Shown in pieces: positions 35,055 through 37,028 of a stretch of DNA of 64,000 nucleotides. A model generated the notes under the pieces. The model saw only the letters and a list, made by a program, of their open reading frames with translations, was not told the DNA's origin and did not search any database. Position 1 is the first letter of the stretch, and each line of letters opens with the position of its first letter. Both the position numbers and the translations under genes were made by a program. The stretch covers positions 1-64,000 of the forward strand of contig DAIDGV010000002.1 of NCBI GenBank assembly GCA_027452205.1, written 5' to 3'. This DNA comes from a candidate division FCPU426 bacterium. GTDB lineage: Bacteria; Oederibacteriota; Muellerivitia; Muellerivitales; Muellerivitaceae.

Positions 35055-35358
35055 ACGGCTTATTAGCCACGGATGCATGGGATGAGGAAAACCCGTAGTA
35101 TAAAAATATTCAAACCGCGACTTTCGCCTGATCCAGCAAGGGTTTCCAATCGTTTTTGACACGGAAATACACGTTCGAGAGATTTCCCAACCTCGATTTC
35201 CTTAAGATTTTTCTTTCCAAACTTCCAACGTTGTCTTCGGGCCGGGGAAAGGGAATGACGTTACCGATCCCCTGGTGGCAAAGCCGAAACAAAGGTTTTT
35301 AATTTCCACAAAAATAAAAATAGGTAAGATGGCCCGATGAAACTTGGGAGAAAATCGA
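35055..35358. other. Gene-free stretch after trpG
   Basis: About 300 bases without a supported gene. It opens with AGCCACGGATGCATGGGATG (35065-35084), which looks like a single arm of another dispersed repeat family (CCACGGATGCACGGATG type) with its partner missing. A 60-codon minus-strand ORF (35110-35292) has no recognisable features. The rest is AT-richer and probably holds the promoter of the following pair. Confidence 0.5.
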
Positions 35359-35637
35359 GTGGAAAAATTCAAAGTTATTCTTGATGAAGAGGCCACGGAA
35401 GGTTTTACGGAATTGTCAAAAAGTCCTGTTTTTGGGGAACTTGTTAAACGTTATTTGAAAGAGCTTTATGATTTTCCGCCGGAAGCGTGGGGTGATGTAC
35501 ACCGCAAGGAAGGACAGAGTTATTTTAAGTCGGATAACCATATGATTTTTGACATTCAGGGAAAGATGCTTTGCGACGAACGGGGCCATGTTTATGGGGT
35601 TAAAATCACCCGTTTCCGGTTGCGGCGGAAGATTTAG
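35359..35637 (+). CDS. Small protein, candidate RelE/ParE-like toxin
   Basis: The 92-residue basic protein starts at GTG with GGGAG 7 bases upstream. The N terminus FKVILDEEATEGFTEL and the C-terminal strands HMIFDIQG and VYGVKITRFRLRRK are laid out like RelE/ParE toxins, but no diagnostic residue proves it. It precedes a ribbon-helix-helix-like protein by 67 bases, as in toxin-first pairs such as HigBA. This is an architecture-based guess. Confidence 0.5.
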   Translation: MEKFKVILDEEATEGFTELSKSPVFGELVKRYLKELYDFPPEAWGDVHRKEGQSYFKSDNHMIFDIQGKMLCDERGHVYGVKITRFRLRRKI

Positions 35638-35664
35638 AAGCATACAAAAAGATTCTTTTTGTGG

Positions 35665-35670
35665 TATAGT
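35665..35670 (+). promoter_or_regulatory. Possible internal -10 box before the antitoxin-like gene
   Basis: TATAGT preceded by TGTGG lies in the 67-base gap between the two small genes, about 35 bases before the second ATG. No good -35 is visible. It would let the second gene be expressed on its own, a common arrangement for antitoxins. Confidence 0.35.
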
Positions 35671-35704
35671 GAACACGGATTTACCGGAAGAAAAAGGGGG
35701 TACT

Positions 35705-36028
35705 ATGGCAAGCGTTATCAGTTACAGGCCCGCGCTGGGCAAAAATAAACTCGAAAAATTGGTTAAAGGCAAACTCCATTACAAGAACCTGAATCAGTTT
35801 ATTGACCATGCCGTAAACAAGACTTTACACGAAGAAATGCACGAAAACCCCATAGCTAAGAAGATAGCCCTTGAGGTGGAAAGGGCTGTTTATAAATACG
35901 TTCCCTTGAAATTTGTAAAACCCACCCCTAAAGAGGTCAAGGATATCGAGATGGCAGTTAAACGCACGGACAAAAGTGGCAAGTGGACTTCAGCTGAAGA
36001 CTTGATCAAGAAACACAACGTTCGATAG
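35705..36028 (+). CDS. Ribbon-helix-helix-like protein, candidate antitoxin
   Basis: The 107-residue protein starts at ATG with AAGGGGG upstream. KLEKLVKGKLHYKNLNQFI followed by DHAVNKTLHEE fits the helix-turn-helix part of a ribbon-helix-helix dimerisation domain (about residues 12-45). A charged C-terminal arm follows, suited to binding a partner. Together with the gene before it, it looks like a toxin-antitoxin pair. A terminator lies 48 bases after its stop. Confidence 0.55.
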   Translation: MASVISYRPALGKNKLEKLVKGKLHYKNLNQFIDHAVNKTLHEEMHENPIAKKIALEVERAVYKYVPLKFVKPTPKEVKDIEMAVKRTDKSGKWTSAEDLIKKHNVR

Positions 36029-36075: not shown

Positions 36076-36102
36076 AAAGGCCCCTTTTGGGGCCTTTTTT
36101 GT
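36076..36102 (+). terminator. Rho-independent terminator after the toxin/antitoxin-like pair
   Basis: AAAGGCCCC (36076-36084) and GGGGCCTTT (36089-36097) form a perfect 9-bp stem with a TTTT loop, followed by further T residues. Confidence 0.9.
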
Positions 36103-36499: not shown

Positions 36500-37000
36500 A
36501 ATAATGCGGCTGTATACGTTGGAAGGCCAAAAGGCTTATTTCCCAATGGGAAGTCAGGTTTTTAGCTTTCGAGAGTGGTGTGAAATAAGGCTTTAGTATG
36601 GTTTGGAGACCTGACTTCACACTTTTGAGGGCTTGAGGTTGTTTCGCTCTTTGACAGGTGAAATAAGACAAGGCTAGGCCCCTGGGTACCGTCCCAGGGG
36701 CTTAGATCATAGGGTTTCAAAAACCCTTATTTTTTGAGGTCGGAGACCGACCTTTGTTTTTAAGGCTTTTTTGAAGATTTTGACCCAGAAAGTTACGGGC
36801 CGGAACTTTTGAACCCCGGTTTTACCAACCGTTGGTAAAACCATCGCCCTCAAAGCCTTACTTTTAGAGAATCTCTAAAAATCATCCTCAGGTCTTACCA
36901 ACCGTTGGTAAAACTAACCCCTCTCACGTCCAATTCTTTCCAGACTCTGGCCGAAATTGGACGCAAGACCGGGGTAATTGTCGGAGACTCCGACAAGCAA
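36500..37000. other. Non-coding region packed with odd-length inverted repeats
   Basis: No ORF of note occurs here. Dyads with a single central base are centred at 36546 (TTCCCA/TGGGAA), 36745 (AGGTCGG/CCGACCT), 36799 (AAAGTT and CGG with CCG and AACTTT), 36830 (GGTTTTACCAAC/GTTGGTAAAACC), 36871 (TTTTAGAGA/TCTCTAAAA), 36903 (TTACCAAC/GTTGGTAA), 36945 (CGTCCAATT/AATTGGACG around CCAGA/TCTGG) and 36987 (TTGTCGGAG/CTCCGACAA). A longer hairpin spans 36675-36704 (GCCCCTGGG/CCCAGGGGC), and GAAGTCAGGT/ACCTGACTTC embrace 36550-36618. A 20-base core of the 36830 dyad recurs at 36903. Function unknown. Confidence 0.75.
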
Positions 37001-37028
37001 AATAAGGGAATTTGGAGTGTTTTGACAG

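Follow-up and report, generated by a model that had tools for sequence, protein, structure and literature searches.

A helically phased array of odd palindromes in an FCPU426 bacterium and its probable derivation from the linkers of ParB/Noc-like genes

The window, i.e. the whole stretch of 64,000 nucleotides that was analysed, lies on contig C2 of the 2.9-Mb genome of a candidate division FCPU426 bacterium (G000, hereafter the own genome). At 36500-37000, in non-coding DNA between two Rhs fragments, it contains a dense series of palindromes with odd centres. Upstream of this array, at 35344-36028, are two adjoining small genes resembling a toxin-antitoxin pair; a strong hairpin that looks like a terminator comes after them, at about 36076-36098. 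A sequence-only reading of the same DNA had listed seven dyads with a single central base, and all of them were recovered at those centres, four being strong and three weaker. The strong ones are the dyads centred at 36830 (36818-36842; GGTTTTACCAAC-C-GTTGGTAAAACC), which has perfect arms of 12 bp, and at 36871 (36861-36881; TTTTAGAGA-A-TCTCTAAAA), 36903 (36892-36914) and 36987 (36976-36998, forward strand; class AATTGT-N11-ACAATT), all three with perfect arms of 8-9 bp. The 36903 dyad is a second copy of the 36830 core, a 21-mer that occurs six times in four patches of the own genome. The weaker class comprises the 36799 dyad (36788-36810; AAGTTACGG-G-CCGGAACTT), which has one mismatch and is perfect in its copy on contig C3, the long imperfect dyad at 36945 (36922-36968; 23-nt arms, 74% complementary), which is kept on C3, and the 36745 dyad (36737-36753, reverse strand; AGGTCGG-AGA-CCGACCT), a unit here termed B-type with 6-bp arms around a free AGA centre. 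The additional odd dyad claimed at 36546 (36538-36554) is present and shares the helical phase of the series, but is weak (75% over 24 nt). Likewise, the hairpin claimed at 36675-36704 is real (36674-36705; CTAGGCCCCTGGG-TACCGT-CCCAGGGGCTTAG), but it has an even loop of 6 nt, is imperfect in the C3 copy and falls outside the phased series. A non-palindromic motif (CTTGCGTCCAATT / AATTGGACGCAAG) also recurs between palindromes, both in the window (36924-36968) and at L021, L022, L080 and L084.

Shuffling, the control proposed with the sequence-only reading, gave no comparable dyads: at three thresholds the 36500-37000 segment has 7, 5 and 4 odd dyads, whereas 500 shuffles averaged 0.12, 0.07 and 0.02 and never exceeded 2, 2 and 1, respectively. 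Measured from 36830 in turns of 10.5 bp, the remaining centres fall at -27.05 (36546), -8.1 (36745), -2.95 (36799), 3.9 (36871), 6.95 (36903), 10.95 (36945) and 14.95 (36987). A BLAST search of the own genome recovered partial copies of the patch on C3, C23 and C10, and additional patches were found on C26 of the own genome and in the relatives G001, G002, G004 and G007; altogether twelve further patches in the same FCPU426 family behave like that in the window. In the own genome, for which the counts combine some 400 kb of sampled DNA with pattern searches, the palindromes are clustered in such patches. Rhs fragments border only the own patches on C2 and C3, and neither those on C10, C23 and C26 nor those of the relatives, so that a special tie to Rhs genes is weak.

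Across 44 gaps from nine patches of four genomes, the spacings of adjacent odd dyads peak at 10.5 bp when periods of 8-14 bp are tried (phase -0.01 turn, R 0.68). Spacings inside a single tandem array are non-independent, and after dropping homologous and tandem duplicates the phase is retained (R 0.61, n 33, p 4e-6). It is also found in the own genome with the window left out (p 0.0017 to 1e-5, depending on the threshold) and in the relatives alone (p 0.02). The dyad thresholds and the merging distance were of our choosing, with the phase result being stable for thresholds of 6 to 7.5. Arrays recognised later, on contigs C45 and C13 of G002 and C2 and C16 of G004, have gaps of 52, 51, 105, 29, 41, 63, 106, 64, 75 and 94 bp and display the same phase (R 0.78-0.79, p 0.002-0.004). 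Between homologous sites of the window and C3 the spacing has changed by 10 and 42 bp, close to whole turns. Even-centred dyads at the same threshold number zero in any of the nine patches. The whole-turn spacing noticed in the window is thus borne out well beyond it, and the sites of an array share a single face of the helix.

Comparison of the copies showed that the flanks are conserved, with the palindromes being altered on both arms. For example, the B-type unit reads GGTCGG-AGA-CCGACC at 36745, TCCGG-AGT-CCGG on C3 and GGACGG-CGG-CCGTCC on C23. Similarly, TTGTCGGAG-A-CTCCGACAA at 36987 corresponds to TTGTTTGCA-A-TGCAAACAA on C3, where the core of the homologous place is wholly different (TTGCAATGCAA) and the symmetry intact. 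In fifteen copies of the AATTGT-N11-ACAATT class with a conserved flank, 97% of the cells are paired as against 77.5% in shuffled sets, two-sided changes number 31 versus 8, one-sided changes just 1, and the covariation score is 0.53 versus 0.13; the signal collapses on sliding the partner by one column. G-T intermediates are almost absent among the covarying arms. Such a near-absence of one-sided changes would be unusual in an RNA helix and is expected of two half-sites in double-stranded DNA. Hence, the arm changes in homologues are compensated, contrary to what would have refuted the sequence-only reading, and the view that varied odd dyads at fixed phase speak for dimers on double-stranded DNA finds support; a cruciform or a single-stranded element does not. 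The dyads are varied in sequence, as had been noticed, but not unrelated: they fall into a few classes with common outer arms and variable inner bases.

The provenance of these units is indicated by coding remnants within the arrays. Around the 36745 dyad, at 36720-36800 on the reverse strand, is a remnant of a ParB-like linker, ARNFLGQNLQKSLKNKGRSPTSKNKGF, comparable to ARTLVKENLQKTLKNDDYDVITKNKGF of the intact gene on C9 (tblastn E 0.002); it shares a DNA match of 63-65 bp with the ParB-like genes on C9 and C23. A second remnant of the linker (VIVGDSDKQNKGIWSV), of a C-type, at 36974-37021 on the forward strand, spans the 36987 dyad plus a conserved AAATAAGGGAATTTGG flank. Translated searches of the patches recovered linker remnants both from these two places in the window and from C3, C23, C26, contigs C104 and C114 of G001 and contig C46 of G002; the decayed start of a ParB-like gene adjoins the C23 array.

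The intact genes of this kind have a striking feature in common. All 18 intact ParB/Noc-like genes, drawn from five genomes (G000, G001, G002, G004 and G006), contain one odd palindrome each, situated in the codons of the linker between the helix-turn-helix (HTH) and the next helix of the DNA-binding domain, and in all 18 its centre falls on codon position 2. Its sequence differs in nearly every paralogue (e.g. CTTGTCTCC-G-GGAGACAAG, TTTACGCAA-G-TTGCGTAAA, GTGCCCGAA-A-TTCGGGCAC and AATTGTCCGCG-A-CGCGGACAATT), the weakest being that of the C9 gene of the own genome, a near-copy of the C23 gene. The palindromes are 17-25 bp long overall (about 17-23 bp in genes) with an odd centre throughout, rather than the even 16 bp of parS/NBS. 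Two canonical chromosomal ParB genes and the outgroups G003 C329 and G018 lack the linker palindrome. Synonymous recoding yields an equally strong palindrome in merely 0.05 to 2.4% of the trials (p 0.0005-0.024 per gene); the combined p of about 1e-28 counts shared history repeatedly, as the genes are related. Furthermore, the members of two orthologue pairs agree at 21/21 nucleotides of the palindrome and at 7/7 third positions, against nucleotide identities of 0.74 and 0.67 in the surroundings. At the level of sequence comparison these results show that codon choice maintains the palindrome in the DNA itself.

Some palindromes were also encountered elsewhere in coding DNA. The ParB-like frame on C23 has a second perfect 11-bp odd palindrome, AGTCGATTCCTT-T-AAGGAATCGACA, at about residue 171 (L023), which is in codon position 3 and not seen in the C9 paralogue. 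The moeA gene of G002 (C19:22368-22388; L026, L112) contains, without a mismatch, the 21-mer of the window array, TTTTACCAACCGTTGGTAAAA, in frame (FYQPLVK) with its centre on codon position 2. It has neither an indel nor a ParB context, is found with one mismatch in the sister species G007 (C127, L113) and was not found in the other relatives.

The path from gene linker to array can be followed in a ParB-like pseudogene on C45 of G002, where the linker palindrome TTTTAGAGA-A-TCTCCAAAA, with its centre on codon position 2, is amplified with a period of 52 bp, after which the ParB-like sequence resumes. The 36871 dyad of the window is near-identical to this palindrome, and together they indicate that arrays can grow out of a linker. 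For 3/5 types of non-canonical ParB-like genes in the own genome, the palindrome of the gene recurs in own patches (CTTGTCTCC twice on C23; GTGATTAC on C26; TTTACGCAA on C10, flanks not shared). The linker remnants and matching sites suggest that linker units from several paralogues, in both orientations, make up the window array. Judged by these matches, array units and gene linkers are shown to be of common descent. Among the own-genome ParB-like genes found, none has a palindrome of the TTTTACCAAC or AATTGT type, though these are the main sites of the window array, which implies that the binder of those sites is missing from the assembly, has been lost or reads several sites.

A profile of five of the proteins matches the structures of Spo0J (1vz0, E 7e-21) and Noc (7ng0, E 8e-20), as well as those of ParB. 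The ParB_N domain (PF02195) is detected in the own C3 protein with 39 bits and in G2_C69 with 28.6 bits, above the cut-off of 26.3, and in several others below it; an HTH_ParB domain follows ParB_N, with the own C24 protein scoring 20.6 bits, slightly under the cut-off of 22.6. The NCBIfam Noc and ParB models match far under their cut-offs, Noc being the nearest model for most of the proteins. With regard to the CTP binding and sliding clamp of the ParB family, a GxxR-like motif is kept, with G77 and R80 invariant in the five proteins. The C-terminal ParB dimerisation domain (PF23552) was not found in the five ParB-like proteins scanned, and is present in the canonical ParB of C12. In most of the proteins the DNA-binding domain is followed by a hydrophobic segment predicted to be a transmembrane helix; a simple hydropathy scan predicted no such helix in G2_C69, G1_C108 and G1_C36. 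The frames listed around the five ParB-like genes of the own genome include no evident ParA. The ParB-like genes on C10, C24 and C9 occur singly and, judged by reading the sequences, adjoin cytosine methyltransferase-like, type I restriction-like and OLD-like ATPase genes, surroundings that resemble defence islands. In phage, plasmid and viral collections no relatives with the same protein architecture were found, and the distant ParB matches from phage and plasmid records cover the N-terminal part only. A viral origin was rejected, IMG/VR having no match to the palindromes, the flank or the ParB-like proteins.

In 15 proteins, distances between half-sites (positions 2-9) correlate with those between recognition helices (Mantel r 0.43, p 0.0008), also after controlling for the N-terminal domain (partial Mantel r 0.38, p 0.002). 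The inner positions 2-5 alone are marginal (Mantel p 0.057, partial 0.18), and the covariation in this small sample rests on positions 2-9 and the outer ones. Three proteins with a proline preceding the conserved lysine of the helix have A at half-site position 4, and two with a glutamate in that place have C. These variable residues are located at position 173 of the recognition helix of ParB and next to it; residue 173 is among the four that determine ParB versus Noc specificity (PMC7383237). This is the pattern expected if a protein co-evolved with a site within its own gene, and the difference of the embedded palindrome from gene to gene suggests that each gene may carry an address read by its own protein.

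In having ParB_N followed by an HTH the proteins resemble chromosomal ParB, and a parS near or within parB is known for spo0J. In contrast to the chromosomal ParB-parS system, the genes described here have no evident ParA alongside among the frames listed, no ParB_C, and a paralogue-specific site at one place in the DNA-binding-domain codons, and the canonical ParB gene of the own genome is devoid of such a palindrome. Known ParB and Noc sites are palindromes of 16 bp (PMC8429893, PMC6238139), whereas those reported here are longer and odd. Noc, the nucleoid occlusion protein of Bacillus, also belongs to the ParB family, recognises palindromes and tethers DNA to the membrane (PMC8429893); it is the second-best PDB relative of the present proteins. 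However, NBS sites share one 16-bp sequence and are distributed around the chromosome, unlike the many odd sequences, one per paralogue, that occur here in genes and phased arrays, and Noc has an N-terminal amphipathic helix in place of the predicted transmembrane helix. The F plasmid sopC (parS-F) consists of 43-bp repeats, i.e. about four turns, with inverted repeats bound by ParB (PMC6238139). A comparable 41-43 bp is a common spacing in the arrays considered here, but sopC repeats a single site, and here successive sites differ and are spaced by 3, 4, 5 and more turns. A precedent for an odd centre is provided by OB, the palindrome of the ParB-family protein KorB of RK2 (oligonucleotide GGGATATTTTAGCGGCTAAAAGGA; PMC11790492), albeit as one operator sequence dispersed over the plasmid and not embedded in a diversified gene family.

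Several other explanations were weighed. Rickettsia palindromic elements are inserted, sequence-conserved and found in many genes, and selfish elements of this type, spreading by insertion with the ParB-like genes as tolerant targets, would account for palindromic units dispersed over coding and non-coding DNA both within and between genes, for shared flanks of 60-80 bp and for coding copies that remain in frame. Yet the palindrome-free ParB-like protein of G003 C329 aligns through the linker ungapped and the moeA copy has no indel, which argues that these palindromes were not inserted; an insertion lengthening the host gene is ruled out by these gapless alignments. Moreover, nearly all coding copies are at one position of essentially one protein family, it is the symmetry that is kept and not the sequence, and neither the helical phase nor the covariation with the recognition helix is explained, making this account unlikely. 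Operator clusters for ordinary, unrelated repressors would suit odd and varied dyads on one face, as such regulators are dimeric, but these palindromes and their flanks also occur within ParB-like genes and the array units keep ParB-like coding remnants, so that we give this option very little credence.

Hairpins of RNA or single-stranded DNA with a loop of one to three bases, serving for instance as a translation pause after the DNA-binding domain, would be selected for structure rather than sequence. The pairing maintained despite varying sequence agrees with this, as does the frequent mismatch of the innermost pair, which is compatible with a triloop. It is nevertheless improbable, given the near-absence of G-U intermediates (1 one-sided against 31 two-sided changes), the whole-turn spacing of a double helix, the units in both orientations in non-coding arrays, the correlation with the recognition helix and the lack of an Rfam match; in the search of RNA families no score came near the gathering threshold. 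Finally, template switching, which perfects near-palindromes and copies changes from arm to arm, could produce compensated arms as a mutational by-product without selection or function. It leaves unexplained why each gene has its palindrome at one constant place, why all centres are odd and why the sites are whole turns apart, and is difficult to reconcile with third codon positions conserved between orthologues and with palindromes concentrated in patches across the roughly 400 kb sampled; hence it is highly unlikely.

We therefore regard the patch in the window as probably an orphan array of putative sites of the ParB/Noc kind (parS/NBS-like), derived from the linkers of genes that would carry the cognate sites of their own products. 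Several observations count against it: the main sites of the array have no matching ParB-like gene among those found in the own genome, the palindromes are longer than known ParB and Noc sites and odd, three of the proteins have no membrane helix in the hydropathy scan, the Mantel test covers only 15 proteins, and moeA of G002 has the 21-mer outside any ParB context. Of the functions left open in the sequence-only reading, which is partly supported overall, a partition site comes nearest, in that the dyads descend from or match palindromes in ParB/Noc-like genes. On the orphan-array account, each palindrome would be recognised by the dimer that its own gene encodes, and a gene carrying its own address would pass on specificity and site together. 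Arrays would arise via tandem expansion of a linker, as seen on C45 of G002, and accretion of linker segments from several paralogues, with the rest of the gene decaying to leave an orphan array such as that of the window. Changes in spacing would be restricted to whole turns, as expected for dimers placed side by side on one face. Given the transmembrane helix that is predicted behind the DNA-binding domain in most of the proteins, the simplest role would be to hold the array DNA at the membrane, in the manner of Noc and NBS; such tethering, as opposed to partition, repression or marking, is drawn by analogy and is the least certain part of the reading. More tentatively still, and with rather less likelihood than the orphan-array account, the genes may form a self-addressing family with a diversified own site within the DNA-binding-domain codons, in which domain swaps move specificity and site jointly. 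The chromosome might then collect the sites of many paralogues in helix-phased arrays that seat different membrane-anchored dimers next to one another, forming a mixed membrane anchor or keeping a record of the addresses of elements encountered earlier.

We know of no family with a different own site per gene at one place in the codons of the DNA-binding domain, nor of arrays in which differing ParB-type sites keep a helical phase, and a survey of the open-access literature found neither such a self-site gene family nor a phased mixed array of ParB-type sites. The diversification of specificity in the ParB family has been dissected on the pair of ParB and Noc (PMC7383237). The genes described here would offer a natural set of protein-site pairs, each encoded in a single gene, that would permit a direct reading of the ParB/Noc recognition code and of how it evolved. 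The whole-turn spacing seen among different ParB-type sites is also relevant to the assembly of these proteins on DNA, here in a phylum for which sequences are nearly the only source of knowledge. As a further observation, perfect odd palindromes (GGTCACAA-W-TTGTGACC and GGTCGCAA-T-TTGCGACC) occur in a frame named ORF6N-like from its sequence, at L109:13290 and 13329 (C46 of G002) and near the ParB-like gene on C10 of the own genome (L174); this frame is possibly the gene of another DNA-binding protein that carries its own palindrome.
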